This document shows positions 2,352-47,411 of a stretch of 64,000 nt of DNA, piece by piece. The DNA comes from Mycobacterium sp. ITM-2016-00318 (GTDB lineage Bacteria > Actinomycetota > Actinomycetes > Mycobacteriales > Mycobacteriaceae). Position 1 is the stretch's first letter; the number at the start of each line of letters is the position of its first letter. A program made the translations under genes and the position numbers. Where the stretch lies: the NCBI RefSeq assembly GCF_002968285.2, contig NZ_CP134400.1, positions 1,674,001-1,738,000 of the forward strand, read 5' to 3'. Under the pieces are notes generated by a model. That model made no database searches. It saw nothing but the letters and a program-made list of their open reading frames with translations, and was not told the DNA's origin.

Positions 2352-5237
2352 TCAGACCGGCGTCGGTGTGCGCGGTGACGGCCACGGCGACGGCACAGGC
2401 CTCTCACGTACCCGCATCGGCCACCAGAACCACTTGCCCATCAGCGCCGCGATGGACGGCGTCATGAACGACCGGATCACCAGGGTGTCGAACAGCAGGC
2501 CGAGGCCGATCGTTGTGCCCACCTGCCCGATCACCGTCAACTCGCTCACCGCCATCGAGATCATCGTGAACGCGAACACCAGACCGGCCGACGTCACCAC
2601 CGAGCCCGTGCCGCCCATCGACCGGATGATCCCCGTGCGTAGTCCGGCATGGATCTCTTCTTTGAATCGTGACACCAGTAGCAGGTTGTAGTCCGCACCC
2701 ACCGCAAGCAGGATGATGACCGACATGGCGAGCACCATCCAGTGCAGTTCGGTGCCAAGAAGATGCTGCCAGATCAGCACTGAAAGGCCGAATGAGGCGC
2801 CGAGTGACAGCACGACCGTGCCGACGATGACCGCCGAGGCCACGATGGCGCGGGTGATGAGCAACATGATGATGAAGATCAAGGCCAACGCGGCGACAGC
2901 GGCGATCACGAGGTCGTATGTGTTGCCGTCGGACAGGTCCTTGAATGTCGCCGCGGTGCCGCCGAGGTAGATCGTCGACCCCTCCAGCGGAGTGCCCTTG
3001 ATGGCTTCCTTGGCTGCCTTCTTGATGGCGTCGATCCGCGCGATGCCCTCGGGCGACAGGGGATCCCCGTCGTGGCTGATGATGAACCGCACGGCGTGTC
3101 CGTCGGGGGAAAGGAACTGTTCCATACCGCGTTTGAAGTCAGGGTTGTCGAATACCTCGGGCGGCAGATAGAAGGAGTCGTCGTTCATCGACGCGTCGAA
3201 CGCCTCACCCATGGCCGACGAGTTGTCCTGCGCCGCCGCCATCTGATCCTGCATGCCCTTCTGCGAGGCGTACATCGTCAGCATCATCGACTTCATGCTC
3301 TTCATGGTCTCGATCATCTCGGGCATCATCGCGACCATCTGCGGCATGAGGGAGTCGAGCCGCTCCATCTCCGGGATCAGCTGCTGGATGTCGTCGGTCA
3401 TGATGTCGATACCGTCGAGCGTGTCGAAGATCGCCCGGATCGAGTGGCAGACCGGGATGTTGTAGCAGTGCGGTTCCCAGTAGAAGTAGTTGCGGATCGG
3501 CCGGAAGAAATCGTCGAAATCGGCGATATTATCCCGCAATTCGGCGACGTCGGCGGTCATGTCCTTCATCTTGACCACCATGTTGTGGGTGGTGTCGGCC
3601 ATCTCGGCGGTCAGGTTGGACATCCGCGTCATGGTGTCGATGGTGTTCTGCATCTCGTCGGCCTGCACGAGCATGTCGGCCATCCGGTCCTGCATGTACT
3701 TCTGGTTCAGCTGCTGGGTGGTGCCCTGCATGCTGATCTGGAACGGGATCGAGGTGTGCTCGATCGGCTTACCGCTTGGACGGGTGATCGCCTGCACCCG
3801 GGAGATGCCCTCGACGCGGAAGATGGACTTGGCGATCTTGTCGATCACCAGGAAGTCGGTCGAGTTGCGCAGATCGTGGTCGCTTTCGACCATGAGCAGT
3901 TCGGGGTTCATTCTGGCGGGGGAGAAGTGCCGGTCGGCGGCAGCGTAGCCCTGGTTGGCCGGCAGGTCGGCCGGTAAATAGCTGCGGTCGTTGTAGTTGG
4001 TCTTGTAGCCGGGCAGCGTCAGCAGCCCGACGAGCGACAACGCGATGGTGGCCACCAGTATCGCGCCGGGCCACCGCACGACCATCGCGCCGACCTTGCG
4101 CCAACCGCGGGTGCGCAGCGCCCGCTTCGGTTCGAGTGCCTTTCCGAACCGGCTTGCGACGGAAATGATCGCCGGCCCGAGCGTGAGGGCGGCAAGCACG
4201 GTGATGAACATGCCGATAGCCAGCGGTACGCCCATCGTCTGGAAGTACGGCAGCCGGGTGAAGGACAGGCAGAAGACGGCGCCCGCGATGGTCAGGCCGG
4301 AGCCGAGCACCACGTGCGCGGTGCCCCGGATCATCGTGTAGTAGGCCTGTTCTCGCTCTTCGCCGACGGAGCGCGCCTCTTGATATCGGCCTATCAGGAA
4401 GATCGCGTAGTCCGTTGCGGCGGCTATCGCCAGCGTCACCAGGAGGTTGGTGGCGAAGGTGGAGAGCCCGATGATCTCGTGATAGCCGAGGAACGCCACG
4501 AGCCCGCGCGACGCGGCCAGTTCGAGAACCACCATCACCAGCACCAGCAGCACGGTGACGATCGACCGGTAGACCAGCAGCAACATGATGATGATGACGC
4601 TGAACGTGACCGCCTCGATCAGCTGCATGCTGCGGTCGCCTGCGATGTGCTGATCTGCGGCCAGCGCCGCGGGGCCTGTCACGTATGCCGTGACGCCCTG
4701 CGGTGGCGAAAGGCTCTCGACGATCGCCTGCACGGACTCGACCGACTCGTTCGCCAACGCCTCGCCCTGGTTGCCCGCCAACTTGACCTGGACGTACGCC
4801 GATTTGCCGTCGTTGCTCTGTGCGCCAGTGGCGGTCAGCGGATCGCCCCAGAAGTCCTGCACCGACTGCACGTGGGCGTTGTCGGCCTCGAGATTGCGGA
4901 CCATCTCGTCGTAGAAGGCGTGCGCCTCGTCGTCAAGCGGTTCCTGGCCTTCGAGCACAACCATGACCGAGCTGTCGGAATCGCCCTCGGCGAAAAGCTC
5001 GCCGACTTTCTTCATCGAGATCATCGAGGGTGCGTCGTTCGGGCTCATCGACACCGCGCGCATCTGGCCGACGGTCTCCAACTGCGGGACCATCACGTTG
5101 GCGACGGCGATGACCGCGATCCAGCCGAGGATGATCGGCACCGCAAAGGCGCGGATGAGGCGCGGAATCAGCGGGCGCCCAGCATGTCTGGCGGGAGGGA
5201 AGGCGTCGGTGGGCGCGTCGATGCTGTGTGCGCTCAT
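2352..5237 (-). CDS. mmpL: MmpL family RND transporter
   Basis: 961 residues, matching MmpL4/MmpL5-type proteins (about 965). It has an N-terminal membrane segment, a periplasmic domain, a first bundle of membrane helices at about 205-400 (including [14 protein letters not shown]), a second large periplasmic domain with a methionine- and aspartate-rich helical hairpin at about 520-680, and a final bundle at about 770-930 ([16 protein letters not shown]). Members export lipids, glycopeptidolipids or siderophores using the proton gradient. Its ATG overlaps the mmpS stop by 4 bases, so the two are translationally coupled. The mmpL-mmpS-divergent TetR order matches Rv0450c-Rv0451c-Rv0452, pointing to the MmpS4/L4 class; the cargo cannot be told. 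Confidence 0.93.
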
Positions 5238-5677
5238 GCGGACTTCACAAAGCAGAAGGTCTGGGCGTTCAAGCCGTCGGACGTCCTCTCGTCTTTGACT
5301 TCGTCATCGACCGTGATCCGGCAGGTGATCGAGCTGCTGTCGCCCTGGGCGACGATGTTCGGCGCGGCGGACGGTGCCGTCGTCTCCAGCGTCAGCGACC
5401 AGGGCAGCGGTGCGCCGTCGATGCGCTGCGGTTTGGCGTCGAGGTCGAGGTAGTTGATGTCGACGTATGTTCCGGTGCCGAAGACCTCGTACTTGACCAC
5501 CTTGGGGTCGAACGGTTCGGGGTCGTCGGCGAAGTTCCGCGGCGTCACCGTTACCCCTTCTGCGCCGAAGAAGGTGCGGACGCGCGAGACCGTCATGCCC
5601 GCGATGACGAGGACTGCCACGATCAGTAGCGGCAACCAAGCCTTCTTGAGGAAGGTCAGTGGCGAATTGCCGCTCAT
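5234..5677 (-). CDS. mmpS: MmpS family membrane protein
   Basis: 147 residues from ATG 5677 ([14 protein letters not shown]), chosen because AAGGAC lies just upstream; a longer reading to 5743 would run into the operator. It has one N-terminal membrane helix ([16 protein letters not shown]) and a periplasmic beta-rich domain with the family pattern VKYEVFGTG and ending in CFVKSA. MmpS proteins are accessory subunits of the paired MmpL transporter. It is the first gene of the mmpS-mmpL operon, with a strong inverted-repeat operator immediately upstream. Confidence 0.92.
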
Positions 5678-5720
5678 CAACCGTTGTCCTTCCACGTGGC
5701 AGACGTCACCGGGAAACTTA

Positions 5721-5770
5721 TACGGTCGGCTAAGTAGCGACAAGCCGTATGGCTAAGATCACTTAGCCGA
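5721..5770. promoter_or_regulatory. Operator cluster in the mmpS/TetR divergent promoter
   Basis: TCGGCTAAGT (5726-5735) is the exact reverse complement of ACTTAGCCGA (5761-5770). Between them GGCTAAG (5751-5757) pairs with CTTAGCC (5762-5768) across 4 bases, giving a compact 18-base palindrome. TACGG (5721-5725) and CCGTA (5745-5749) form a further short dyad. Three copies of the GGCTAAG half-site therefore sit 50-100 bases upstream of mmpS, the pattern expected for a TetR repressor site. Confidence 0.65.
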
Positions 5771-5889
5771 ACGTTCTGTTACCTCAGCCACACGGCTGAC
5801 GTTTTCGGCCGGCGATCGACGTTGGCGTGTTTAGGATCGGGAGCCACAAAAGGGGGTACGGTCAGCGGCACGAAGCTGAAGGGACGCGC

Positions 5890-35220: not shown

Positions 35221-37391
35221 CCGGGGCTTTCGCGCGCTTCCAGCTTCGTTCCCTCGATGTCGACGTCGGGGACGTAGGTGTCGAACCACTTCGAGTGCGC
35301 CCACATCCTGTTGCCCAGAATGCTCATGATCGCCGGAATCAAGGTGAGCCGGACGACGAACGCGTCCAAGAAGACGCCGACGGCCAACGTCAGCCCAACC
35401 GATTTGATGATGGGATCGCCTCCGGCGAGGAAGGCGACGAAGACGCCGAACATGATCAGGGCCGCGGCGGTGACGACACGTGCGGAGAGGCCGACGCCGT
35501 TGCGCACCGCTTCCAACGCATCGTCGGTCTTGGTCAGCTCTTCCTTCATCCGGGAGACCACGAACACCTGATAGTCGCTGGACAGGCCGAAGATGATCGC
35601 CAGCACGATGATCGGAAGAAAGCTGATCGTTTCGCCGGGCGTGACACCGAGAAGATCAGCGCCCCAGCCCCATTGGAAGATCGCGACCTGAACGCCCAAT
35701 GCCGCGAACACCGAGAGGAGGAAGCCGACGATCGAGGTGACGGGCACGAGCGCAGCCCGGAAGGCAACGGTCAGCAGGATGAACGCGAGCCCGACGACCA
35801 CCACGAGGAAGATCGGCAGCGCAGCGGCGAGCTTGTCCGAGGTGTCGATGTTGGACGCGGTGGTGCCGCCCACGAGAATCGTCGCGCCGGTGTCGCCCTC
35901 GATGGTGGCCCGGTCGTCCCGGATTCGGTTGACCAGATCGGCGGTCGCGGTGTCATTCGGTCCCGTCGTCGGGATGACCTGGATGATGGCGGCGCCGTTC
36001 TGGCTGGCCGCGGGTGCGGCGGTGACCACTCCGGGTTCCTGGCGGAGACGCGATGCGATGGCCGCGACCGCATTGGGATCGTCGGCCCTTGTGACGTCGG
36101 CCACCACGAGAAGAGGACCGTTGAAGCCCGCGCCCATGTGCTCCGAGGTCAGATCGTAGGCCTTGCGCGAGGTGTTCGACTCCGGTTGCGAGGCGCCGCT
36201 GGGCAATCCGAGATGCATTCCGAAGGCGGGCAGGCCGAGCACGACGAGTGCGGCGGTTCCAGCGATCAGCAGCCGCTTGCGCGTGGCCACGACGAAGCGT
36301 CCCCATTGGGCGCCGAGGGTGCGGTGCGGGGTGAACGCCGCCACCTGAGCCGTTTCCTTCGCGCGGTCGAACGGCGTCGGGATGAACTTCGCGACGCGAT
36401 CTCCCGCGAAACCGAGCAGCGCCGGCAGAAGCGTCACCGCGATGAGCAAGGCGATGAGGACCGACACGGCGGCCGCGACGCCCATATAGGTGAGGAAGGG
36501 AATGCCGACGATCGACAATCCGCACAGCGCGATGATCACCGTCAACGCGGCGAATACCACCGCCCCGCCGGCAGTGCCGACCGCCAGCGCGGCAGACTCC
36601 TCCTTTGGTCTCAGCAGGAGCAGATTGTTGCGGTAGCGGTTCAGGATGAACAGCGCGTAATCGACGCCGCACGACAGCCCCAGCATCAGCGCAAGAGACA
36701 GCGCGGCGGTCGGCATATCGACGAGGGCGGCGACGGCGAAAATGCCGAGCGCGCCGATGCCGACACCGATGCACGCCGTGATGATGGGCAGCCCGGCGGC
36801 GACGACGGCGCCGAATGTGAGCAGCAGGATCAGGAACGCGACGACGATGCCGATGATCTCGGGCAGCTCGGGAACGCTGACCTTGTAGCCGGGAAACACG
36901 CTGCCGGAATACTCGACCTGCACCCCGGCCAGCTGTGCGGGTCGCATGGCGGCCTGCACCGCTGCGAGCGGGCCGTCATCGACTTCACCCGGCTGGGCCT
37001 TCCATTGCACCGTTCCCAGCGCGACCTGGCCATCCGGTGATACCAGCCGAGTCTGCGTGGGCCCCGCCGCGACCGCGATCTGGGGAATCGAGCGCAGGTT
37101 TGCGATCGATTCGTCGATGCCGGCGGCCAGCATGGGATCGCTCAGCCGGGCCCCGGGCCCGGCGGCGAAGGTGACCTGCGTCTGCGCGCCGCTGAAAGCG
37201 GGCAACTTCTGCTGAAGCTGCTCGACGGCCCGTTGCGATTCGGTGCCCGGAATCGTGAAGTCGTCGCTGGGCTCACCTCGCAGGCCGACGCCGGCGAGGG
37301 CGACGCCGACGAGCACGGCAAGCCATGCGCCGAGCACCAACCGGCGACGACGAAAGCAAAAGCCGCCGATGGCGTACAGGTACTTCGACAT
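35199..37391 (-). CDS. MMPL/RND family transporter
   Basis: 730 residues from ATG 37391 (MSKYLYAIGGFCFRRRR), preceded by GAGGTGAAACGA. It has one helix, a periplasmic domain, a bundle of five or six helices at about 160-350 (MLGLSCGVDYALFILNRYRN), a second periplasmic domain at about 390-510, and a final bundle including IFGLSSDYQVFVVSRMKEEL. It is shorter than MmpL4/5 and closer to the YdfJ-type MMPL exporters found in many actinobacteria. No MmpS or regulator is adjacent. It runs into the frameshifted monooxygenase convergently, with 22 bases of overlap at the stops. Confidence 0.9.
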   Translation of the reverse strand: MSKYLYAIGGFCFRRRRLVLGAWLAVLVGVALAGVGLRGEPSDDFTIPGTESQRAVEQLQQKLPAFSGAQTQVTFAAGPGARLSDPMLAAGIDESIANLRSIPQIAVAAGPTQTRLVSPDGQVALGTVQWKAQPGEVDDGPLAAVQAAMRPAQLAGVQVEYSGSVFPGYKVSVPELPEIIGIVVAFLILLLTFGAVVAAGLPIITACIGVGIGALGIFAVAALVDMPTAALSLALMLGLSCGVDYALFILNRYRNNLLLLRPKEESAALAVGTAGGAVVFAALTVIIALCGLSIVGIPFLTYMGVAAAVSVLIALLIAVTLLPALLGFAGDRVAKFIPTPFDRAKETAQVAAFTPHRTLGAQWGRFVVATRKRLLIAGTAALVVLGLPAFGMHLGLPSGASQPESNTSRKAYDLTSEHMGAGFNGPLLVVADVTRADDPNAVAAIASRLRQEPGVVTAAPAASQNGAAIIQVIPTTGPNDTATADLVNRIRDDRATIEGDTGATILVGGTTASNIDTSDKLAAALPIFLVVVVGLAFILLTVAFRAALVPVTSIVGFLLSVFAALGVQVAIFQWGWGADLLGVTPGETISFLPIIVLAIIFGLSSDYQVFVVSRMKEELTKTDDALEAVRNGVGLSARVVTAAALIMFGVFVAFLAGGDPIIKSVGLTLAVGVFLDAFVVRLTLIPAIMSILGNRMWAHSKWFDTYVPDVDIEGTKLEARESPGQLAASR

Positions 37392-37462
37392 TCGTTTCAC
37401 CTCGGGGTACATAGGAGAGGGGGAAAATGTTGAGTCGTTCATTCCCGAGTGGGGGGAGTCTT

Positions 37463-38347
37463 ATGCGCCGGTCGGCTGCGTTGCGGTGTGAGCTTTCACA
37501 CTGGACTTCGGTGGTTGCGGTGATCGCTGTGCTTGCGTGCTTCGGGTTCTACGGCGGCGCCAGGGCCTCGGCGAGCGGTGTCGACACCACAGGTGCACTG
37601 CCGTACGGGGGCCTGAACCGTACCTATGTGCTGCACGTTCCTCCGGGCGTCGAACGCCCAACGGGTCTGGTCATCAACATGCACGGAGCGGGGATGACCG
37701 CAGGGGAACAGGCCGCGCTGTCGAACTACAACGCCGTCGCCGACCAGCACGGATTCGCGGTGGTTTACCCGGACGGGATCGACCTGAGCTGGGCGGACGG
37801 TCGCGGCGCATCGACACCCGACCGTCAGGGCGTCGACGATGTCGGCTTTCTCGCGGCGCTGGCCGATCGGCTGACCGCGGATTACAACATCGAGCCCGGC
37901 CATGTGTTCGCGACCGGGATGTCAGCCGGGGCGTTCATGGCAGGGCGGCTGGCCTGCCAGCGTGCCGACCTCGTGTCGGCCATCGCCCCGGTGGCCGGAT
38001 CGCTCGGTTCCGCCTACCCCTGCAATCCGTCGGAGCCGGTGTCCGTCTTCGCGACCAACGGCGTCGCGGATCCTGTCGTGCCGTACGCGGGCGGCACCAT
38101 GGTGGGCCGCGGCGGAGCCAGCGACATCGTCGCACCGGCGGCGCTGGCCGGTCGGTGGCGCGCTCTGGACAACTGCCCGGGTGCGCCCGTCGAGGATTCT
38201 CCGAGCGCCGGAGTGCGGCGTTCGATGGCCGCAGGATGCGCCGGCGGCACCCAGGTCGTGTTCGTCAGCGTCGAGGGCGGCGGACACGAGTGGTTCGGGG
38301 GCACGTCGCAGGCGAGCGGCCAGTTCTTCGCCGATCAGCTGCGGTGA
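37463..38347 (+). CDS. Secreted esterase, PHB depolymerase/LpqC-like
   Basis: 294 residues from ATG 37463, preceded by GGGGGGAG. A signal peptide is clear (VVAVIAVLACFGFYGGARAS). The alpha/beta hydrolase has nucleophile Ser in FATGMSAGAFMAG, acid Asp in NGVADPVVPYAG and His in VEGGGHEWFGG. The oxyanion region is VINMHGAGMTAGEQ. The family includes polyhydroxybutyrate depolymerases, feruloyl and acetylxylan esterases and mycobacterial LpqC-like proteins. No lipobox Cys follows the signal, so it is probably released or loosely bound. It stands between the MMPL gene and the DUF808 gene. Confidence 0.85.
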   Translation: MRRSAALRCELSHWTSVVAVIAVLACFGFYGGARASASGVDTTGALPYGGLNRTYVLHVPPGVERPTGLVINMHGAGMTAGEQAALSNYNAVADQHGFAVVYPDGIDLSWADGRGASTPDRQGVDDVGFLAALADRLTADYNIEPGHVFATGMSAGAFMAGRLACQRADLVSAIAPVAGSLGSAYPCNPSEPVSVFATNGVADPVVPYAGGTMVGRGGASDIVAPAALAGRWRALDNCPGAPVEDSPSAGVRRSMAAGCAGGTQVVFVSVEGGGHEWFGGTSQASGQFFADQLR

Positions 38348-38387
38348 CCGCGGAGCCGGTAACCTCCAATTCGATGAGGGAAATGCG

Positions 38388-39332
38388 ATGAGCGCCGGAC
38401 TGTTCGGCCTCCTTGACGATGTCGCCGCGATTGCCCGGCTGGCCGCAGCCTCGGTAGATGACATCGGAGCCGCCGCCGGGCGGGCGACGGCGAAGGCCGC
38501 GGGGGTTGTGATCGATGACACCGCGGTCACCCCTCAGTACGTGCACGGCATCGCCGCAGCACGCGAGCTGCCGATCATCAAGCGGATCGCCATCGGATCG
38601 CTGCGCAACAAGTTGCTGTTCATCTTGCCCGCGGCGCTGCTGCTCAGTCAGTTCGTGCCGTGGCTGCTGACCCCGATCCTCATGCTGGGCGCGACCTACC
38701 TTTGCTACGAGGGCGCCGAGAAGGTGTGGGGTCGTATCAGCGGACACGACGCGCACGCCGGACCGGTGGCGGTGCGGGGCGAGGACGCCGAGAAGCTCAT
38801 GGTCACCGGCGCCATCAGGACGGACTTCATCCTGTCCGCCGAGATCATGGTGATCGCCCTCAATGAAGTCGCGGACCAGCCATTCCTGCCCAGACTCATC
38901 ATCCTTGTCATCGTCGCCCTCGTGATCACCGCCGTCGTCTACGGCGTCGTGGCCGGCATCGTCAAGATGGACGACGTGGGGTTGAGCCTGACCCAGCGTT
39001 CGTCGGCGTTCGCGCAACGCGTCGGTCGCGGCCTGGTTGCCGGCATGCCGAAGCTGCTCGCGGCACTGTCGACGATCGGCACCGTGGCGATGCTCTGGGT
39101 GGGCGGCCACATCCTGTTGGTGGGAGCTGACGAGCTCGGCTGGCATGCGCCCTACGGCGTCGTGCACCACTGGGAGGAAGCCGTTCATCACATCGGTGGC
39201 GTCGGCGGGGTGCTGGCGTGGCTGATCAACACCGCCGCGTCAGCGGTGATCGGCTTGGTCGTCGGCGCCGTCGTCGTCGCGATCATGGGGGTGATCCACC
39301 GGATCAAAGGGCGCTCGCAGCAACCGAACTGA
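38388..39332 (+). CDS. DUF808 membrane protein (YedI-like)
   Basis: 314 residues from ATG 38388 with GAGGGAAA upstream. The opening MSAGLFGLLDDVAAIARLAA is the DUF808 signature, followed by DDTAVTPQYVHGIAAARELP. Four to six membrane helices follow (FILPAALLLSQFVPWLLTPI, FLPRLIILVIVALVITAVVY, LSTIGTVAMLWVGGHILL and others). Function is unknown. It is 40 bases downstream of the esterase and 15 bases before the PAS-ANTAR gene, and may be read through into the signalling island. Confidence 0.85.
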   Translation: MSAGLFGLLDDVAAIARLAAASVDDIGAAAGRATAKAAGVVIDDTAVTPQYVHGIAAARELPIIKRIAIGSLRNKLLFILPAALLLSQFVPWLLTPILMLGATYLCYEGAEKVWGRISGHDAHAGPVAVRGEDAEKLMVTGAIRTDFILSAEIMVIALNEVADQPFLPRLIILVIVALVITAVVYGVVAGIVKMDDVGLSLTQRSSAFAQRVGRGLVAGMPKLLAALSTIGTVAMLWVGGHILLVGADELGWHAPYGVVHHWEEAVHHIGGVGGVLAWLINTAASAVIGLVVGAVVVAIMGVIHRIKGRSQQPN

Positions 39333-39347
39333 TGTAAGAATCGCCTC

Positions 39348-40031
39348 ATGACGAAGCCGAATCCGGCCCGCCGCGGGGAGGCCGAGCTATCGCCTTCCGC
39401 GGCTCCGCACCTGAACGTCGGCAGTTTCCGTTTCTGGTTCGTCGGACAACGGTGGGAGTGGTCCGACGAGGTGGCCCGGATGCATGGCTATGAGCCCGGC
39501 TCCGTCGTGCCCACCACCGAGCTGCTGCTCTCGCATAAACACCCCGACGACCGTCAGCACGTGCAGGACCTCCTGGATCACCTTCTGCATTTCGGCGGGT
39601 CGTTCTCCAGCCGCCACCGCTTCATCGACACCGCGGGCGGTCAACACACCGTGATTGTGCTGGCCGATCGGATGCTGGACAGCAACGGCGCGGTGGTGGG
39701 CAGCGAGGGTTATTTCATCGACCTCACGGACACGTTCCATCAGGCTCGTCGGCAGGTCCTCGACGACTCGCTGCCAGAACTGTTCGAGGCGCGTGCGGCC
39801 ATCGAACAAGCGAAGGGTGCCCTGATGCTCGTCTATCGCATAAGCGCCGACGCCGCCTTCGAGATCCTGCTGTGGCGCTCGCAGCAGACCAACACCAAAC
39901 TGCGGGCGCTGGCCAGTCAGGTCGTCGCCGAACTCGACACTCTGCGGTACCAGCCTGACAGCCTGCGGCGGGAATTCGATCATCTGCTGCTGACCGTGCA
40001 CGACCGCGTCGGCAAACCCCGCGAACGTTAG
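39348..40031 (+). CDS. PAS-ANTAR signalling protein
   Basis: 227 residues. A PAS-like fold covers about 25-130 (FRFWFVGQRWEWSDEVARM, then YFIDLTDTF) and a C-terminal ANTAR domain about 150-205 (EARAAIEQAKGALMLVYRIS then AFEILLWRSQQTN). ANTAR domains bind RNA hairpins and relieve transcription termination, so this is a one-component sensor acting on mRNA, a common mycobacterial type. The ligand of the PAS domain is unknown. It begins MTKPNPARRGEAEL and lies just upstream of the STAS / hybrid-kinase cluster. Confidence 0.85.
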   Translation: MTKPNPARRGEAELSPSAAPHLNVGSFRFWFVGQRWEWSDEVARMHGYEPGSVVPTTELLLSHKHPDDRQHVQDLLDHLLHFGGSFSSRHRFIDTAGGQHTVIVLADRMLDSNGAVVGSEGYFIDLTDTFHQARRQVLDDSLPELFEARAAIEQAKGALMLVYRISADAAFEILLWRSQQTNTKLRALASQVVAELDTLRYQPDSLRREFDHLLLTVHDRVGKPRER

Positions 40032-40167
40032 CGACGGTGTTGTTGTCCACCGAAGCGTCACAAACCTGCAGGTTTCGGCCACAACGATCTTGGTCATAAG
40101 GCTTAATGTGAAATCTGGGGTGGCAACGGGGGCTGTGCTGGCCGGATGAGCGGAGGTGAACGGGCGC

Positions 40168-40533
40168 GTGGCGCTCCTGGAAGTGAAGAAGGATGTTCGC
40201 GAAGCGGGGGTCATCGTGTTCGCGGACGGCGAAATCGACTCCGGCACGGTCGACACCTTGGTCTCCCACCTCGACGCCGCGCTCGAGGAGGCTTCCGGCC
40301 ATCCCACCCGAATCCTTATCCTCGAGTTGGGTGACGTGACCTACTTCGGGAGCGCGGGCCTCAACGCCGTCCTCGGTTGTTACAAGAAGGGTCTGGCCGA
40401 CGACGTGTCGGTACGTGTCGTCGCCAGCAACGCCGAAGTGATCATGCCGATCGAGGTCACCAAGCTCGACAGACTGCTCAAGCCTTACCCAACCGTGATG
40501 GACGCGCTCGACGGCACTGACGGAACGCAATGA
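40168..40533 (+). CDS. STAS-domain anti-sigma factor antagonist
   Basis: 121 residues from GTG 40168 (VALLEVKKDVREAG); GGAGG lies 11 bases upstream and an alternative GTG at 40156 falls inside it. The STAS fold shows VIVFADGEIDSGTVDTLVSH, and the phosphorylation loop reads VTYFGSAGLNAVLGCYK, where the Ser of the (D/G)SAGL element is kept. Such proteins bind RsbW-like kinases when unphosphorylated and release a sigma factor. It overlaps the giant hybrid gene by 4 bases (ATGA), so the two are coupled and probably partners. Confidence 0.88.
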   Translation: MALLEVKKDVREAGVIVFADGEIDSGTVDTLVSHLDAALEEASGHPTRILILELGDVTYFGSAGLNAVLGCYKKGLADDVSVRVVASNAEVIMPIEVTKLDRLLKPYPTVMDALDGTDGTQ

Positions 40534-43500
40534 CCGGCGACGCAGAGCGCGGTTTTCCGACCGCGGTCTTCGGCGCTGACCTTGATGTGGGCCGAGACCT
40601 GGCGCAAGTGGATTGGTCGGCGACGCCGCTGGGTTCTCCGTCAGGCTGGCCGCAAAGCTTGCAGACCGCCGTTTCCATCCTCCTGTCATCCCGCTTCCCG
40701 ATGTGGATGGCGTGGGGGCCGGATCTGACCTTCTTCTGCAATGCCGCCTATCGGCGCGACACGCTGGGCCGGAAGTATCCCTGGGCGTTGGGTAGGCCAG
40801 CCAGCGAGGTGTGGTCGGAGATCTGGGACGACATCGGCCCGCGCATCGACCGGGTGCTCTCCACGGAGCAGGCCACCTGGGATGTCGGACTTCTGCTTTT
40901 TCTCGAGCGGTCCGGCTACCCCGAGGAGACCTACCACACGTTCTCCTACAGCCCACTGCGAGACGACGACGGCCGCGTCGTCGGTATGTTGTGCGTCGTA
41001 AGCGAGGACACCCTGCAGGTGATCGGCGAGCGCCGAATGGCCACGCTGCGAGACCTCGGGTCGGATCCGAGCGTGATCCGCTCCGAACAGGAGAGCGTGA
41101 CGTTCGCCCATCGGCAACTCGAGCAGAACCAACGCGACCTTCCGTTCACGGCAACCTATCTCTTCGACGACGGTGGGGACGCCCGCCTGGCGGGAGCGAG
41201 TGGAATCGCCGCCGGGCATCCCGCCGCGCCAGCGGTGCTGCCGGCAGACGGGGCGGCGGTCTGGCCGGTGCAGCAGGTGTCGCGCGGCGAGTCGATGCTG
41301 GTCGACCTTGTCGGCGCACCGTTCGCCGATCTGCCGACCGGTGACTGGCCCGAGCCGCCGGTCAAGGCTTACGTGGTTCCGCTGACAGTTCAGGGTGGGG
41401 CGCCCAGCGGCTTCCTGGTGGCCGGGCTGAACCGCTACCGGCCGATCAACGAGCGCAATACCGGCTTCGTCGCATTGGTGGCGGCCTACATCGCCGCGGG
41501 GATCGGCAGTGCGAGAAGCTTCCGGGCTCAACAGCGACGAGCCGAAGAGCTCGCGGAGCTGGACAGGGCGAAGACCACGTTCTTCTCCAACATCAGCCAC
41601 GAGTTCCGTACCCCGCTGACGTTGATACTCGATCCCATCGCCGAGCTGCGCGGCCGGTCCGGCGGGCTTGCCGATGACGTACGGCAAGACCTGGATGTCG
41701 TGTGGCGCAATGGCCTACGGCTCACCAAACTCGTCAACACGCTGCTGGATTTCTCCCGTATCGAGGCGGGAAAAGAGCAGGCCCGCTACGAACCGGTGGA
41801 TCTCGCGGCCGTCACCGCCGAATTGGCCAGCGTCTTCCGGTCCGCGGTCGACCGCGCCGGACTCGAGTTCGTCGTCGACTGCCCTCCGCTCGACGAACCC
41901 GTCTACGTCGACCGCGATATGTGGGAGAAGGTGGTGCTCAACCTGCTTTCGAATGCGCTGAAGTTCACCTTCGACGGTTCCGTCGGGGTCATGGTGCGCA
42001 GGCAGGGTGAGGAGGCGGTCGTCACCGTCGTCGACACGGGTATCGGCGTGGCGCAGGACGAGATGCCGCGACTCTTCGAGCGATTCCACCGCATCGAGTC
42101 CGCTCATGCGCGCTCGAATGAGGGCAGTGGAATCGGGTTGGCGTTGGTGCAGGAGTTGGTGAACCTGCACGGCGGCACCATCTCGGCCGAGAGCACCGAA
42201 GGCAGCGGAACGTCGTTCACCGTCCGGTTGCCGTTCGGGTTCGCACATCTGCCCGTAGACGCCGTCGTCTCGACGCGACAGACGCGGGCGGCGTCGGGTC
42301 TCGCCGAACCGTTTGTCCAAGAAGCACTTCGATGGATGCCAGGTGATGTTTCCGACGCAAGTACCGAAGGCGTCGTTGATCTCCTTTCCGACGCCACCGT
42401 GGCTCATGCGCCTGGAGCCGCATCGACGACACATGTGCTGATCGCCGACGACAACGCCGATATGCGGGAATACCTCGGGCGACTGTTGAGAGGCGCCGGT
42501 CACCGCGTCGACGCGGTCAGCGACGGCCAGGAAGCCTTGGAGGCCATCCGTGCCGACGTTCCCGATCTGGTCGTCAGCGACGTGATGATGCCGAGGCTGG
42601 ACGGGCTGGCGCTTGTCGCCACGTTGCGCTCAGATCCACGGACTGCTGCGGTACCGGTTCTGCTGCTGTCGGCGCGCGCCGGGCAGGAGGCGTCGATCGA
42701 AGGGTTGCAAGCCGGCGCAGACGACTACCTCGTCAAGCCCTTCGCGGCCGCTGAACTGCTTGCCCGGGTGCGGGGAATCATCGAGTTGGCGCGACTGCGC
42801 AACCACCACGCCCGTTGGCGCACCGCACTTGTCGACTCTCTGCAGGAGGGGTTCTTCGTGTGCGACGAGGTCGGCGCTGTCATCGAGATCAATGCCGCGT
42901 TCGCCGAGATCACGGGTTACGGCACCGAGGGGTTGCCCTATCAACCGCCGTTCGCCTGGTGGCCGTCGGCCGAGAGCGACCCTGAGGCGCGCAGGCAGAT
43001 CGACGCCGCGTTCGCGGAGATGCTGGAAGAGGAGCACGGCAGCTTTACGATCCCGATCAACCACCGCGAAGGGCACCGCTTGTGGGTGACGGTGAACTTC
43101 AATCACGCCGAGGATCCGGACACCGGACGGCGAGTCATGGTCGGCACATTCCGTGACGTCACCGCCGAGCACTACACCGTCCAGCGCGAAAGCGCGCTTG
43201 CCTCTCTCAATCAGCAACTCGCTCAAGCGGACACACTCGACGACGCGATGCGCGCAGCCGCAGAGGAACTGCGGCGGCTGTGGCGGGCGCATCGCGTATG
43301 CGTCGTAACTGTGTCGCCCGATAGCGCGGAAACCGACGCGCCGCAGTTCATGTCTGTAGGTGAGCCTGCGCAGTGGTCGCATCTGCCGCCGCGCACGCAG
43401 CAGATGATCAGGGCGCTCGGAGAGGGCGATCTGCTCACGCCCGACACGTCGCAGCCCGGGATGGCGGGCATCGCACTGCAACACCCCCGCGGGATCCTTG

Positions 43501-44690
43501 TGCTGCACATCGAACTCGCCGAGCGGCGGCCGTTCACCGACGAGGACGACATGTTGCTCACGGTGCTGGCAGGCAGGCTCGGCCAGGGTCTGCAGCGGGT
43601 GCATCAGCTCGACCAGCAGCGGGAGACGGCGCTGGCGCTGCAGAACGCGATCCTGGGTCCGTCCAACCTGCCGAAGGGATTCGCGGTGCGCTACCAGCCC
43701 GCCGCCCGCCCGCTGCAAATCGGTGGCGACTGGTACGACGTCGTCGATCTCGACGACGGCCGTATCGCGCTGATCGTCGGCGACTGCGTCGGGCACGGGC
43801 TGCCCGCGGCGACGGTGATGGGCCAGCTCCGGAGCGCCTGTCGCGCGTTGCTTCTCGAGGAACGAAGCCCCAGCGCCGCGCTGTTGGCGATGGATCGGTT
43901 CGCCGCCCGGCTCTCCGGCGCGCGATGTACCACCGCCTTCTGCGCGGTGCTCAGCCCCGACACCGGTGAGCTGGTGTACTCCAGCGCGGGTCATCCACCC
44001 CCGATCATGGTGTTGGCCGACGGCACGACCCGATTGCTCGACGGTGCGCGCGCCACGCCGCTAGGGCTGTCTCTCGATCGATCGCGGCCCGAGCGCCGGG
44101 AGACCCTGCCTCCGCGCGCAACCCTGCTGCTCTATACCGACGGACTGGTCGAGCGCCGCCGCGAACCGCTGGACACCGGCATCGCCCGCGCCGTCGAACT
44201 CGTTGCGAAGAACCGCTCCAGCGCGCTCGACGACCTCGCCATGCAGGTGATGTCACGGCTGGCGCCCGGCGATGGCTATCAGGACGACGTCGCGCTTCTG
44301 CTGTACCGCCAGCCCGCCCCGCTCGAACTCGAGTTCCCCGCTGAGGCAAGCAATCTCGCCCCGACCCGCGCGGCGCTTAAGGGCTGGCTGTCCCGCGTGG
44401 GGATGGACGAGGATCAGACGCTCAAGGTGCTCATCGCCACCGGTGAGGCGCTCGCCAACTCGATCGAACACGGGCACCGGGTGATCACCGGGGGAGCGAT
44501 CAGCCTGCGAGCGATCGCGCTCGCCGATCGGGTGCACGTCACGGTCGTCGACGCGGGTTCGTGGAAGCCGCCCGTGGCGGCTGCGCATCGGGGCCGCGGC
44601 ATCGCGCTGATGCGTGCTCTGATGCAGGACGTCACCATCTCGCCGCGTGCCAGCGGCACCACCGTTCACATGCACACAAGGATCGCGTGA
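40530..44690 (+). CDS. Hybrid sensor kinase / receiver / SpoIIE phosphatase / RsbW-like protein
   Basis: 1386 residues. Order read from the sequence: PAS (about 20-165, LGSPSGWPQSLQTAVSIL), GAF (190-335), HisKA (His357 in ISHEFRTPLTLIL), HATPase (455-575, NLLSNALKFT), receiver (634-750, DD640-641, Asp684 in VVSDVMMPRLDG, Lys in YLVKPF), PAS (757-885), GAF (890-1035), PP2C/SpoIIE phosphatase (1040-1245: GGDWYDV with Asp1067, GDCVGHGLPAA, YTDGLVERR, QDDVALLLY), and an RsbW-type HATPase (1255-1386, Asn1310 in GEALANSIEHG). All catalytic motifs look intact. It joins phosphorelay sensing to sigma-factor partner switching in one chain, beyond the PAS-phosphatase-kinase-STAS plan of Rv1364c. STAS genes overlap both ends. 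Confidence 0.92.
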   Translation: MTGDAERGFPTAVFGADLDVGRDLAQVDWSATPLGSPSGWPQSLQTAVSILLSSRFPMWMAWGPDLTFFCNAAYRRDTLGRKYPWALGRPASEVWSEIWDDIGPRIDRVLSTEQATWDVGLLLFLERSGYPEETYHTFSYSPLRDDDGRVVGMLCVVSEDTLQVIGERRMATLRDLGSDPSVIRSEQESVTFAHRQLEQNQRDLPFTATYLFDDGGDARLAGASGIAAGHPAAPAVLPADGAAVWPVQQVSRGESMLVDLVGAPFADLPTGDWPEPPVKAYVVPLTVQGGAPSGFLVAGLNRYRPINERNTGFVALVAAYIAAGIGSARSFRAQQRRAEELAELDRAKTTFFSNISHEFRTPLTLILDPIAELRGRSGGLADDVRQDLDVVWRNGLRLTKLVNTLLDFSRIEAGKEQARYEPVDLAAVTAELASVFRSAVDRAGLEFVVDCPPLDEPVYVDRDMWEKVVLNLLSNALKFTFDGSVGVMVRRQGEEAVVTVVDTGIGVAQDEMPRLFERFHRIESAHARSNEGSGIGLALVQELVNLHGGTISAESTEGSGTSFTVRLPFGFAHLPVDAVVSTRQTRAASGLAEPFVQEALRWMPGDVSDASTEGVVDLLSDATVAHAPGAASTTHVLIADDNADMREYLGRLLRGAGHRVDAVSDGQEALEAIRADVPDLVVSDVMMPRLDGLALVATLRSDPRTAAVPVLLLSARAGQEASIEGLQAGADDYLVKPFAAAELLARVRGIIELARLRNHHARWRTALVDSLQEGFFVCDEVGAVIEINAAFAEITGYGTEGLPYQPPFAWWPSAESDPEARRQIDAAFAEMLEEEHGSFTIPINHREGHRLWVTVNFNHAEDPDTGRRVMVGTFRDVTAEHYTVQRESALASLNQQLAQADTLDDAMRAAAEELRRLWRAHRVCVVTVSPDSAETDAPQFMSVGEPAQWSHLPPRTQQMIRALGEGDLLTPDTSQPGMAGIALQHPRGILVLHIELAERRPFTDEDDMLLTVLAGRLGQGLQRVHQLDQQRETALALQNAILGPSNLPKGFAVRYQPAARPLQIGGDWYDVVDLDDGRIALIVGDCVGHGLPAATVMGQLRSACRALLLEERSPSAALLAMDRFAARLSGARCTTAFCAVLSPDTGELVYSSAGHPPPIMVLADGTTRLLDGARATPLGLSLDRSRPERRETLPPRATLLLYTDGLVERRREPLDTGIARAVELVAKNRSSALDDLAMQVMSRLAPGDGYQDDVALLLYRQPAPLELEFPAEASNLAPTRAALKGWLSRVGMDEDQTLKVLIATGEALANSIEHGHRVITGGAISLRAIALADRVHVTVVDAGSWKPPVAAAHRGRGIALMRALMQDVTISPRASGTTVHMHTRIA

Positions 44691-44989
44691 TGGCCACGGC
44701 GCTGAACATCGAAACCCAGGACCGCGGTGACGGCACCCTTGTGCTGACAGCGACGGGTGAGATCGACCTGAGCAACATCGATGCGTTCTCCGGGGCCCTC
44801 TCGGCGGCAGGGACCGACGGCGCGTCTCTCATCGTCGACCTCAGTGACGTGCTGTATCTGGACAGCGGCGCGATCAACGTGTTGTTCGCCAATGCGGGCC
44901 GAATACGCTTGATCGCCAATCCTGTTCTGATGCCGGTGTTGCAGATCAGCGGGCTCACCGACGTTGCCTCGGTCGAACCTGCCGCTTAG
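44690..44989 (+). CDS. STAS-domain anti-sigma factor antagonist
   Basis: 99 residues. Its ATG shares a base with the hybrid kinase stop (TGATG), a sign of translational coupling. The STAS fold shows TLVLTATGEIDLSNIDAFSG and the phosphorylation loop is VLYLDSGAINVLFANA, where one residue of the usual DSSGL element is missing. It may be the substrate of the RsbW-like domain of its neighbour or of the SpoIIE phosphatase. With the 40168 protein this gives two STAS partners for one hybrid enzyme. Confidence 0.85.
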   Translation: MATALNIETQDRGDGTLVLTATGEIDLSNIDAFSGALSAAGTDGASLIVDLSDVLYLDSGAINVLFANAGRIRLIANPVLMPVLQISGLTDVASVEPAA

Positions 44990-45001
44990 GCCGTCAGATT
45001 C

Positions 45002-45760
45002 TCAGGTGGCATTTCGGATGCGCGGCGACAGCTGCACGATCTCGGGCACGACGCTCGGGTTCTGGTGTGCGGTGATGACGAGGGACACCAGCGTGTTGGC
45101 GACGTCGTTGAGTGTCGACATCTGCGCCGGAAGCTGGCCGTGCTCAACCCATGATCGGAAGAGCAGCGACAGCAGATCGCGATCCGCGCCGCGCAGGATC
45201 TCGGTGTCGGCGGTCGGGCCGATGCCGACGCGCACGAGCGAAAGCTCAGGATGTTCGCTGCGCCACGAGTGCAGAATCTCGTCGAGGGCGGCCTTGCTCG
45301 CACTGTAGGCCGAGACGCCGGCACGAGGACGGCCGACGTCGTGGCTCGACGCGATCAGCACGACACCGTCCTCCGAGAGGTGGGGAAGCGCGGCGCGCAG
45401 CACGTTGTTGGCGCCGACGGCATTGACGGAAAACGCATGCACCCATGTCGTGACATCGGTGTCCTCGATGTTCGCGAACGGCACGACGGTGCTGGTGAAC
45501 ACGACGGCGTCGAGTCCGCCGAGTGTTTCGGCCGCCTCGGCCACGACCCGGTTGATCGCGCCCGCGTCTTCGACGTCGAGTTCCAAAGCGGTGCCGCCGA
45601 CGGCATCTGCCAGCTTGGTCAGCAGATCCATCCGTCGCGCCGCAACAGCCACCTTGGCGCCGGCCGCCGCGGCGCTCTCCGCGACCGCGTGGCCGATGCC
45701 CGACGAAGCGCCCACCACGAGGAGGCGAAGTCCGGCGGCGTACATCGGTCGACCGTCCAT
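45002..45760 (-). CDS. Short-chain dehydrogenase/reductase
   Basis: 252 residues from ATG 45760 (MDGRPMYAAGLRLLVVGASS). The cofactor motif is VVGASSGIGHAVAES, the Asn region is VFTSTVVPFANIED instead of the usual NNAG, catalytic Ser lies in LIASSHDVGRP and YxxxK is SAYSASKAALDEI. It starts 2 bases after the VTT membrane protein stop, so they are co-transcribed. The substrate is unknown. It is convergent with the second STAS gene, 12 bases apart. Confidence 0.85.
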   Translation of the reverse strand: MDGRPMYAAGLRLLVVGASSGIGHAVAESAAAAGAKVAVAARRMDLLTKLADAVGGTALELDVEDAGAINRVVAEAAETLGGLDAVVFTSTVVPFANIEDTDVTTWVHAFSVNAVGANNVLRAALPHLSEDGVVLIASSHDVGRPRAGVSAYSASKAALDEILHSWRSEHPELSLVRVGIGPTADTEILRGADRDLLSLLFRSWVEHGQLPAQMSTLNDVANTLVSLVITAHQNPSVVPEIVQLSPRIRNAT

Positions 45761-45762
45761 TG

Positions 45763-46521
45763 CTACTGCCCTTCGCTCTCGGGTGTTAGCCCACCCTTTG
45801 TTTGACGGACAGTACCTGGTCCGTCGGTCGTCGTATGACGACGCCCACGCCAATGGCGGTAGCCATGGTGGGTCGCCAACGCGCCGATGACGGCGGTAAT
45901 GCACCAGATCGCGATGGCGACATACGCCAGCGGTGACGACAGATCGCCGATCGATGCGCCCAACGCGGTGTAGACGAACGCCCGCGGTACCGAACCGATG
46001 AACGCACCGGCGGCGATCTGCCACAGCGGCATTCCGAAGGCACCGAACGCGTACGACGCGAGCGCATCGGAGACGCCCGGGATGAACTTCTGGCCGACGA
46101 CTGCCCACAGCCCACGCCGTTCGATCAGGCCGTCCAGGCGGTCGGAGCGCTCGGTGCCGAGGAGTGTGCGCGCGCTCGTCCTGCCTACCCGCCGCCCGAT
46201 CAGACCGGCGATGACCGCCGTACCGACCGTCGCGCCGAGAGTGACGAACAGCCCGAGCACTGGACCGAAAAGCAGGCCGCTGCCCGCGGCGAGGATCGGG
46301 CCCGGCACGAAGATCGCCCCGAGCAGCGCCGACACCACGACATACGTCAGTGGCGCGAGCGGGCCCGTTGCGGTGACCGTGCGCCGGACATCCTCGACGT
46401 CGACCACACGGGTAACGGCAACGAGGTAGAACAGGCCGAGCAGAAACGCCGCGAACACGGCCAGCCGAATGATGTGTCCGCGTCGGGAAACGGCGGGCGC
46501 CTCGTCGTCGTCGTCGATCAT
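45763..46521 (-). CDS. VTT (TVP38/TMEM64) family membrane protein
   Basis: 252 residues with about six membrane helices (LAVFAAFLLGLFYLVAV, then PLTYVVVSALLGAIFVPG, and VTLGATVGTAVIAGLIGRR). The VTT core includes FIPGVSDALASYAFGAFGM, and the long re-entrant hairpin is the family hallmark. VTT/DedA proteins act on lipid flipping or membrane energetics. It is the first gene of a two-gene unit with the SDR and is divergent from the SDR/KstD-like unit at 46563. Confidence 0.85.
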   Translation of the reverse strand: MIDDDDEAPAVSRRGHIIRLAVFAAFLLGLFYLVAVTRVVDVEDVRRTVTATGPLAPLTYVVVSALLGAIFVPGPILAAGSGLLFGPVLGLFVTLGATVGTAVIAGLIGRRVGRTSARTLLGTERSDRLDGLIERRGLWAVVGQKFIPGVSDALASYAFGAFGMPLWQIAAGAFIGSVPRAFVYTALGASIGDLSSPLAYVAIAIWCITAVIGALATHHGYRHWRGRRHTTTDGPGTVRQTKGGLTPESEGQ

Positions 46522-46562
46522 CTTGGAGACGATTCTTCCGCACGCCGCGTATGGTCCGGCGA

Positions 46563-47411
46563 ATGACCGGTGACGGCGTCCCGCCCATCGATGACTGGAA
46601 CAGGCTTCTCGACGGGCGGGTCGCGGTGGTCACCGGGGGAGGCGCGGGCATCGGCGCAGGGATCGCGCGCCTGTTCGCCCAGCACGGAGCGCTCGTCGAG
46701 GTCGCCGAGATCGATCGCGAACTCGGTGATGCGATCCGCGACGAGGTCAGCGGCGCGGGCGGACGTATCCGAAGCCACGTCGTCGATGTGACCGACGACG
46801 GTGACGTCGCCCGGATGGCCGACGCCGTGCTGACCGAGCACGGCCGGGTCGACGTGCTGGTGAACAACGTCGGCGACTACCGCCCGCTGGTGCCCTTCGC
46901 CGAGTCGACTCCCGACTCGTGGCAGCAGATGTACGACGTCAACCTGCGCCACGTCTTTGCGGTGACCAGGGCGTTCGTGCCGTCGATGATGGAGGCGGGA
47001 CGCGGCAGCGTCGTCACCGTGCACTCGGTCGAGGGGATGCGCGGATACCCGAAGGACCCGGTGTACGGCGCGATGAAAGCGGCCGCCGCGCACTTCACCA
47101 CCTGTCTGGCCGTCGACCTCGGACGGCACGGTATCCGCGTCAACGGCATCGGCACCGACTTGGCCCAGACGCCGCAGGTCGACTACCTGACCGGCTATCA
47201 GGATGTCGGCGAACTATGGGCGTCATGGGCGCCGGTCGGACGGGTGGGCTGGCCGGAGGACCAGGCGCGGGTGGCGCTGTTCCTGGCCTCCGACCAGTCC
47301 GCGTTCGTCACCGGGCACAACATTCCCGTCGACGGCGGCACGAAAGCCGGTGGCGGCTGGCTGTTCTCACCGCGCGAGGGCCGCTTCGTCAACAGGTCGA
47401 GGAACCTGTGA
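46563..47411 (+). CDS. Short-chain dehydrogenase/reductase
   Basis: 282 residues from ATG 46563 (MTGDGVPPIDDWNRLLDG). A TATGGT box ends 7 bases before this ATG, so a leaderless transcript is likely; an ATG at 46551 is inside that box. Motifs: VTGGGAGIGAGIAR for the cofactor, LVNNVGDYRPLVPF, Ser in TVHSVEGMRG, YxxxK in PVYGAMKAAAAH, and the C-terminal FLASDQSAFVTG. Its stop overlaps the KstD-like start (GTGA). The pair probably oxidises ring alcohols and ketones in a steroid-like substrate. Confidence 0.85.
   Translation: MTGDGVPPIDDWNRLLDGRVAVVTGGGAGIGAGIARLFAQHGALVEVAEIDRELGDAIRDEVSGAGGRIRSHVVDVTDDGDVARMADAVLTEHGRVDVLVNNVGDYRPLVPFAESTPDSWQQMYDVNLRHVFAVTRAFVPSMMEAGRGSVVTVHSVEGMRGYPKDPVYGAMKAAAAHFTTCLAVDLGRHGIRVNGIGTDLAQTPQVDYLTGYQDVGELWASWAPVGRVGWPEDQARVALFLASDQSAFVTGHNIPVDGGTKAGGGWLFSPREGRFVNRSRNL

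Follow-up and report, generated by a model that had tools for sequence, protein, structure and literature searches.

A conserved actinobacterial family of hybrid histidine kinases fused to a candidate partner-switch output and accompanied by a STAS protein

Can a single polypeptide hold both a two-component phosphotransfer module and the opposing enzymes of a partner switch and, if so, what might it control? The question is raised by a window of 64,000 nucleotides (C1:1674001-1738000 of the 5.46 Mb single-contig genome of Mycobacterium sp. ITM-2016-00318), in which four consecutive + strand genes encode, according to the list of open reading frames (ORFs) and Pfam, a PAS-ANTAR protein, a first STAS protein (upstream STAS), a protein of 1386 residues (the large protein) and a second STAS protein (downstream STAS). 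An interpretation made earlier from the nucleotide letters alone (the sequence-only reading) had given the large protein the order PAS-GAF-HisKA-HATPase-receiver-PAS-GAF-PP2C-RsbW, and this order is borne out by Pfam together with a match to the PAS domain of Rv1364c, the second GAF domain being borderline. On balance, the large protein is probably a hybrid histidine kinase of the cytosol that has its partner-switch output in the same chain, an output which would be carried by STAS proteins and feed a SigB/SigF-type sigma factor.

The matches to HisKA, HATPase_c, Response_reg, PAS_4, SpoIIE and HATPase_c_2 all lie above the curated Pfam cut-offs, with 160.6 bits for the SpoIIE domain and 87.8 bits for the RsbW-type HATPase_c_2 domain. 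GAF domain 1 reaches 37.8 bits against a whole-protein cut-off of 28.6, with no single stretch above the cut-off alone, and GAF domain 2 reaches 22.7 bits against 22.4. A sequence search of the PDB pairs residues 62-166 with the PAS domain structure of Rv1364c (3k3d, E 2e-4) and residues 1021-1386 with its PP2C-RsbW structure (3ke6, E 6e-53). The elements of a hybrid histidine kinase are present (HisKA with its histidine, HATPase_c with N, G1 and G2 boxes, and a fused receiver with its aspartate), followed by what is, at the level of sequence, a SpoIIE/RsbU-type PP2C phosphatase, recognized from the family match and the metal-binding aspartates, and an RsbW/SpoIIAB-type kinase with the N, G1 and G2 boxes of HATPase_c_2. 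The Pfam result for the 1386-residue chain contains no HPt domain (HPt proteins were not searched for elsewhere in the genome); the chain is therefore a hybrid kinase that allows no more than a single internal His-to-Asp step, and the 'complete phosphorelay' of the sequence-only reading was an overstatement. The highest hydropathy over 19 residues is 1.55, so membrane anchoring was rejected and the protein is judged cytosolic.

As to the signal, the predicted structure of residues 13-345 has a mean predicted local distance difference test score (pLDDT) of 75.5, with 44-67 in the PAS part (blocks to residue 150). The 50 listed PDB matches to this region are phytochromes or derivatives with template modelling (TM) scores of 0.34-0.42, and no ligand is deduced from them. 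The PAS domain of Rv1364c is listed among palmitate binders (PMC8694187; here and below, citations refer to excerpts of the papers), and a fatty-acid signal for the N-terminal PAS domain of the large protein is, by this resemblance, only a lead.

Conservation was followed across 112 loci picked by similarity to the large protein, some species being present twice, from two collections; collapsing eight loci with identical proteins left 104 distinct sequences. The 80 named loci are the best 80 of 318 confirmed relatives, which were found by exact peptide patterns and fetched with flanks of up to 6 kb, and two members of one further chosen set of 36 loci were skipped as duplicates. Of the 32 motif sites in the four enzyme and receiver modules, 29 are invariant across the 104 sequences, the variable ones being H1089, L1360 and M1361. 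The catalytic motifs had been described as intact, and they are: His357, Asp684, Asp1067 and Asn1310 are unmutated and occur in 104/104 sequences. The same holds for N475, D502, G504, G534 and G536 of the histidine-kinase HATPase_c domain, for D640, D641, D684, S714 and K736 of the receiver, for the six PP2C aspartates (D1067, D1085, D1204, D1252 and D1253, the expected metal ligands, and D1070) and for E1306, N1310, H1314, D1341, G1343 and G1357 of the RsbW-type domain.

Averaged over the sequences, identity to the window protein amounts to 85% for the PAS region (residues 20-175), 82% for the receiver, 76% for HisKA, 75% for HATPase, 70% for PP2C and 58% for the RsbW domain. The PAS value is partly a matter of ascertainment, because the N-terminal PAS pattern FPMWMAWG served as a search peptide and is present in 83 of the 104 sequences; among the 23 rows that came from the whole-genome search only, PAS identity (84.5%) is barely above that of the receiver (82.7%). 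By the proportion of columns at least 98% conserved, HisKA (46%), PAS (44%) and receiver (44%) are similar. Two cysteines of the N-terminal PAS region, C70 and C155, are each invariant in 104/104 sequences.

Both STAS genes had been said to overlap the large gene, and they do: the upstream STAS stop and the large-gene start share ATGA (40530-40533, a 4-base overlap), and the large-gene stop and the downstream STAS start share TGATG (44688-44692, a 1-base overlap). The downstream STAS gene is present at 111 of the 112 loci. Its start lies inside the stop of the large gene at 109 of them, by 1 base at 74 and by 4 bases at 35; it abuts the large gene at one more, and at L110 it lies 1377 bases off with another ORF between. 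The beginning of that intervening ORF (L110:10133-11338, 401 aa) resembles, by eye, a TnpB-type protein of transposons. Since the whole genome holds 10 STAS matches in 5.46 Mb, yet the two genes overlap or abut at 110 of 112 loci, the adjacency is not due to chance. The DS motif, the candidate phosphosite of the downstream STAS, is invariant in 101/101 aligned sequences (the alignment excluded L110, where the STAS is distant). An AlphaFold2 model of this protein (mean pLDDT 94.8) finds its best PDB match in the RsbV chain of the RsbV/RsbW complex 6m36 (TM 0.84); further antagonists, RsfB among them, come next, and an RsbV fold is accordingly the model's prediction. Both STAS proteins have the sequence features of STAS antagonists, namely the fold and an invariant serine, where helix 2 begins, aligned with a serine of the RsfB structure, which we take to be the phosphorylated serine of RsfB. 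Neither STAS protein has a match in PHROGs.

Of 148 genomes sampled from the genus, the window genome included, 59 hold a near-full-length match to the large protein of at least 65% identity; one of the 59 has an internal TGA and one is matched only from residue 70. Five further matches of that identity class are partial or broken, and one full-length match has 45% identity. In congeners G045, G009 and G076, copies of the fusion gene appear broken or frame-split. Full-length matches of at least 54% identity occur in 45 of 298 genomes of an order sample, which has some genomes in common with the genus sample, and full-length matches in 8 of 396 genomes of a phylum sample. Carriers among the best 80 of 318 relatives include members of Mycolicibacterium, Mycobacterium, Streptomyces, Micromonospora, Actinoplanes, Paractinoplanes, Frankia, Thermomonospora, Actinomadura, Planomonospora and Actinokineospora, with Mycobacteriaceae as the closest named relatives; the proteins of 42 non-mycobacterial loci with a full-length gene are 61-67% identical to the window protein. 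HisKA, receiver, SpoIIE and HATPase_c_2 occur together in the best 120 of 7985 protein matches, the exception noticed being P0026, which lacks HATPase_c_2. Judged by these homologues, the large protein is a member of a conserved actinobacterial family and not a one-off, and the earlier picture of an exceptional fusion went too far, also in view of relatives with several architectures (below).

Given the observed domains, the intact and conserved catalytic residues, the gene overlaps and the conserved STAS partner with its serine, the following mechanism is proposed. Signals received by the N-terminal PAS-GAF region would set autophosphorylation of H357, and the phosphoryl group would pass from H357 to D684 of the fused receiver. 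The state of the receiver, together with input from the second PAS-GAF region, would then determine whether PP2C dephosphorylates or the RsbW-type domain phosphorylates the co-translated downstream STAS, presumably at S59; unphosphorylated STAS would bind an anti-sigma or RsbW-type protein, and a SigB/SigF-type sigma factor would be freed. Histidine kinases work as dimers. PP2C switches of this class, in turn, reportedly receive their drive from PAS, GAF or receiver domains by way of helical linkers that dimerize (PMC12143880), so that a natural model would be a parallel dimer which relays the signal along its length. That a His-to-Asp signal sets phosphatase against RsbW-type kinase on a STAS protein, as the sequence-only reading supposed, has published precedent in trans in HsbR and RsfS/RsfR (PMC6482189, PMC10950880); the remainder of that proposal stays conditional here. 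In view of these precedents, coupling of the receiver to the balance of phosphatase and kinase is likely to operate in cis in the large protein, if the analogy holds.

A serious rival, although on our estimate a rather unlikely one, is that the receiver mainly inhibits or tunes the histidine kinase, which would signal to a separate response regulator in trans, while PP2C and the RsbW-type domain would be controlled by the second PAS-GAF region alone. The receiver within RsbK is inhibitory, and its deletion leads to constitutive sigma-B expression (PMC4574943); in the large protein, moreover, Pfam places the second PAS-GAF between receiver and phosphatase, and the relative L118 consists of GAF-GAF-PP2C-RsbW without histidine kinase (HK) or receiver (REC), while L119 of the same set (domains not scanned) has an overlapping STAS gene downstream. 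Set against this, the receiver ranks with the best-conserved modules, REC-PP2C and REC-PP2C-kinase coupling is established elsewhere (PMC10950880, PMC6482189), and no response regulator gene was noticed adjoining the large gene in the ORF list of the window, where, at this locus only, the four genes were domain-scanned. We retain receiver control of the phosphatase and kinase pair as the preferred reading.

Relatives with other combinations of the same modules, each a single example scanned with Pfam, bear on which parts belong together. L118 is 870 aa long, and its set is 61-71% identical to residues ~892-1385 of the large protein. L121, from a second mycobacterial family, is HK-REC-GAF-PP2C-RsbW (1282 aa) with a STAS gene overlapping its start, and L123 is HK-REC-PP2C-RsbW (1226 aa). 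L122:5740-10842 and L133:1619-6730 carry HK-REC-PAS-GAF-PP2C-RsbW-STAS in one chain of ~1700 aa. In an hhalign comparison, the STAS part of L122 can be aligned to the downstream STAS family with a probability of 95%, and the presence of a fused STAS in these chains supports STAS as the natural partner. Two other SpoIIE arrangements were also seen. In another genome of the genus, a stressosome-like operon (L120:2018-6548) comprises two STAS genes, a HATPase gene and a small SpoIIE gene, followed by RsbU_N-PAS-PP2C-RsbW in one chain of 735 aa (Pfam). Another SpoIIE protein of the window genome (L031:4740-7025) combines a GAF domain with a MASE1 membrane sensor at its N-terminus.

For the sigma factor, SigF is our best guess, being the best candidate target because its gene (C1:1372098-1372772) is the only SigB/F/G-type sigma gene above the family cut-off in the genome. 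An RsbW-type gene immediately precedes it, and a STAS gene follows in convergent orientation. Elsewhere, SigB/F/G-family sigma genes lie near the large gene at two Paractinoplanes loci, as the immediate upstream neighbour, divergent at L111:4961-5848 and co-directional at L102:about 5150-5883; in Streptomyces, one confirmed by NCBIfam lies ~4 kb away at L099, and at L103 a match obtained by BLAST only, cut by the contig end, also lies ~4 kb away. Such neighbours are suggestive of a sigma-factor target and do not amount to proof. The single 'sigma-factor decision' of the sequence-only reading was accordingly put too strongly: the candidate stands, the certainty does not.

Two further alternatives concern the output. 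The RsbW-type domain might act mainly as an anti-sigma factor, the fusion itself sequestering a sigma factor with STAS as the antagonist, as CrsR does with RpoS through its PP2C and anti-sigma/kinase domains (PMC6482189); an anti-sigma role is also ascribed to OsaC of S. coelicolor (PMC9739842). We regard this as unlikely, given that the two roles are divided in M. smegmatis, where RsbW1 serves as anti-sigma factor whereas RsfB is phosphorylated by RsbW2 (PMC7693655, PMC10950880), and that the window genome has its own RsbW-type gene next to sigF. More improbable still, the switch could act on another STAS-controlled target that is not a sigma factor, in the manner of the diguanylate cyclase HsbD, which is bound by HsbA when the latter is phosphorylated (PMC6482189). 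The shortness of the downstream STAS (99 aa) and the scarcity of SigF-like genes near the loci fit this idea; the directly adjacent sigma genes of the two Paractinoplanes loci and the alignment of the upstream STAS with RsfB over most of its length speak against it. An output through STAS to a sigma factor remains the preferred reading.

Several points weigh against that reading. The SigF gene lies ~340 kb from the large gene in the window genome, and of the 112 loci searched by BLAST with this SigF only 4, each belonging to the 80 named ones, have a SigF-like gene within the flanks that were fetched; by rough judgement, such a count could be near chance in sigma-rich genomes. The SigF-type promoter, whose pattern we take to be GTTT-N14-18-GGGTA, was found within 300 bases upstream at 0/37 loci before the upstream STAS and 0/35 before the PAS-ANTAR gene, and before the main gene at 1 of 74 loci without an upstream STAS (L014 excluded); its near-absence therefore gives no support for SigF autoregulation. 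At L014, no STAS match lies within the 1.5 kb flanks. Within the phosphatase, H1089 of the GHG motif is histidine in 76 and arginine in 28 of the 104 sequences. Three HK-REC-RsbW relatives (L128:906-3590, L129:826-3624 and L131:20-3553) have no phosphatase domain found in the chain, so that control of a phosphatase is not the sole possible output; their composition suggests that a receiver can couple directly to an RsbW-type kinase. Finally, the effect of the receiver differs among the precedents, with RsfR inhibited and RsbY and HsbR activated (PMC10950880, PMC6482189), and because these signs are opposite, that in the large protein is not predictable.

The two STAS proteins, which had been treated as equivalent partners, are both present and are not equal. 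The upstream STAS aligns over most of its length with the antagonist structures 4qtp and 8ih8 (RsfB), and its FGSAGLN motif is invariant in 32/32 sequences. It is found at 37 of the 112 loci, and at 35 of the 37 it is preceded by the PAS-ANTAR gene, which had likewise been placed upstream in the sequence-only reading; the other two (L010 and L039, the same contig) end before the PAS-ANTAR position. In a tree made by a quick method, all rows with an upstream STAS fall within one mycobacterial clade of 36 rows, in which L014, L016, L045 and L048 lack it in the fetched flank. As carriers are confined to one clade, a single gain with few losses is the simplest reading. By this distribution, the upstream STAS and the PAS-ANTAR protein are a mycobacterial addition, the RsfB-like second STAS and its neighbour probably having joined the operon later, and the downstream STAS is the core partner. 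A second STAS also lies within 1.7 kb at 15 of the 42 non-mycobacterial loci, leaving out an odd match at L104 inside an overlong gene model; it is divergent and upstream in 11 of these and downstream on the same strand at L073, L080 and L108. To judge from these positions, a second STAS seems to have joined the large-protein system more than once, in different places.

The positions of all features are collected in Table 1. The ORF tool starts the upstream STAS at 40156, with an alternative GTG at 40168; methionine occurs at the position of this GTG in 10 of 32 aligned homologues and few local alignments extend 5' of it, and the GTG is for these reasons the favoured, though not proven, start. 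A search of window positions 37000-47000 with Rfam at the gathering threshold gave no match, and no dedicated search for the ANTAR hexaloop was made.

Table 1. Genes of the locus and domains of the large protein, in window positions
Feature	Positions	Strand	Basis or remark
PAS-ANTAR gene, 227 aa	39348..40031	+	Pfam PAS_3 and ANTAR
Upstream STAS gene, 121 aa, RsfB-like, candidate phospho-Ser in FGSAGLN	40168..40533	+	Pfam STAS
Hybrid histidine kinase/receiver/PP2C phosphatase/RsbW-type kinase gene, 1386 aa	40530..44690	+	ORF and Pfam
N-terminal PAS region, residues 20-175	40587..41054	+	residues 62-166 match Rv1364c PAS
GAF domain 1, residues 185-325	41082..41504	+	Pfam GAF_2
HisKA, residues 347-414, phospho-acceptor H357	41568..41771	+	Pfam
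Histidine-kinase HATPase_c, residues 461-569	41910..42236	+	Pfam
Receiver (Response_reg), residues 636-748, D684, K736	42435..42773	+	Pfam
Second PAS (PAS_4), residues 768-881	42831..43172	+	Pfam
Second GAF, residues 903-1019, borderline	43236..43586	+	Pfam
PP2C/SpoIIE phosphatase, D1067 to residue 1260	43728..44309	+	Pfam SpoIIE 1075-1260
RsbW-type HATPase_c_2 kinase, residues 1269-1381, N1310	44334..44672	+	Pfam
Downstream STAS gene, 99 aa, core partner, candidate phospho-Ser S59 (DS motif)	44690..44989	+	Pfam STAS

If the proposed mechanism is correct, the locus is an unrecognized input to SigF or SigB, including in species such as M. vaccae. A 2021 study drawing on 244 mycobacterial genomes came to the view that at least one further, unknown pathway controls SigF in mycobacteria; in the draft genome of M. 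vaccae it detected neither RsbRST nor RsbK/RsbM and had no more to propose than a possible RsbPQX route (PMC8115616). The description of RsfSR in M. smegmatis came later (PMC10950880). The M. vaccae record L051 holds the complete four-gene locus, with both STAS genes and PAS-ANTAR, and the locus is therefore a concrete further candidate for the unidentified route. L045, a record of M. austroafricanum, shows the main gene together with the downstream STAS, and no upstream STAS within the fetched flank. A bolder version of the proposal, which we offer tentatively as possible and not as probable, makes the large protein a single-chain converter in which its own histidine acts through its own receiver on its own phosphatase set against its own serine kinase, with a translationally coupled STAS as their substrate and the second, RsfB-like STAS leading on to SigF, as an input shared by mycobacteria, streptomycetes and actinoplanetes. 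The relatives that join HK-REC to RsbW only, to PP2C-RsbW or to PP2C-RsbW-STAS lend themselves, as a graded set, to working out how a single receiver could control two opposing enzymes. The interest of the family lies in its cis arrangement, its breadth, its near-constant STAS partner and a testable question about SigF, and not in uniqueness.

Neither a description of an HK-REC-PP2C-RsbW fusion nor a functional study of the large protein was found in the paper listings and excerpts searched; de Been et al. 2011, which reportedly deals with hybrid kinases in sigma-B modules, could hold one. Among described proteins, Rv1364c of M. tuberculosis resembles the large protein in its PAS domain and PP2C-RsbW pair. 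It acts on a STAS serine and carries PAS, PP2C, kinase and a fused STAS in one chain (PMC10950880), whereas the window protein has HK-REC-PAS-GAF and a STAS encoded by a separate overlapping gene, and so falls outside the Rv1364c family, defined as PAS-PP2C-RsbW-STAS in one chain without a histidine kinase. OsaC of S. coelicolor is similar in being a GAF/PAS-regulated PP2C in stress control; it is likened here by description only, and the excerpt mentions no HK-REC for it (PMC12143880).

Closer in S. coelicolor may be SCO7327, a hybrid histidine kinase without transmembrane helix and with a phosphorylatable receiver, in a host apparently lacking HPt, so that its cascade is unclear (PMC9739842); under its other name, OsaD, it is credited with a presumed part in the sensing of osmotic stress (PMC9739823), and SCO7325 is an RsbV homologue in SigB control (PMC8346170). 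The Streptomyces loci L073, L080 and L108 have the order family gene, STAS, second STAS, and from gene order it is plausible that SCO7327, compared by description only, is orthologous to the large protein. None of the names among the 120 matches listed for a Streptomyces query shows SCO7327, many rows being unnamed or having shortened names. Should SCO7327 belong to the family, the HPt puzzle of S. coelicolor would be solved by an output in the same chain, which could explain more generally how an actinobacterial hybrid kinase works without an HPt protein.

RsfS/RsfR-RsfB-RsbW2 of M. smegmatis likewise combines a histidine kinase, a receiver-PP2C protein, an RsbW-type kinase and a STAS substrate, phosphorylation by RsfS lowering the phosphatase activity of RsfR on RsfB (PMC10950880); it differs in consisting of four separate proteins, with a membrane CHASE3 kinase. 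A separate locus of the window genome (L033, C1:5338378-5342517) is laid out like rsfB-rsbW2-rsfS-rsfR, its SpoIIE, STAS and HATPase_c_2 being recognized by Pfam and its kinase and receiver genes by eye. HsbR/HsbA of P. aeruginosa and CrsR/CrsA of S. oneidensis share the receiver-PP2C-kinase chain acting on a STAS antagonist; in the HsbR model, the unphosphorylated form phosphorylates HsbA and the phosphorylated form dephosphorylates it, separate histidine kinases signal through HptB, and the excerpt mentions no PAS or GAF between receiver and PP2C (PMC6482189). Compared by description only, the large protein has the same receiver-PP2C-kinase order and an adjacent STAS, but with a histidine kinase fused in front and a PAS-GAF between. 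The sigma-B partner switch of B. cereus similarly has a hybrid histidine kinase, RsbK, acting above RsbY, which is a receiver-PP2C phosphatase (PMC4574943), and here phosphorylation raises phosphatase activity (PMC10950880); RsbK/RsbY comprises two proteins, with RsbK transmembrane and RsbW separate. Partner switches set by phosphorylation in trans are thus known from HsbR/HsbA, RsfS/RsfR and RsbK/RsbY, and by analogy with them the most likely novelty of the family described here is that the same logic would operate in cis.

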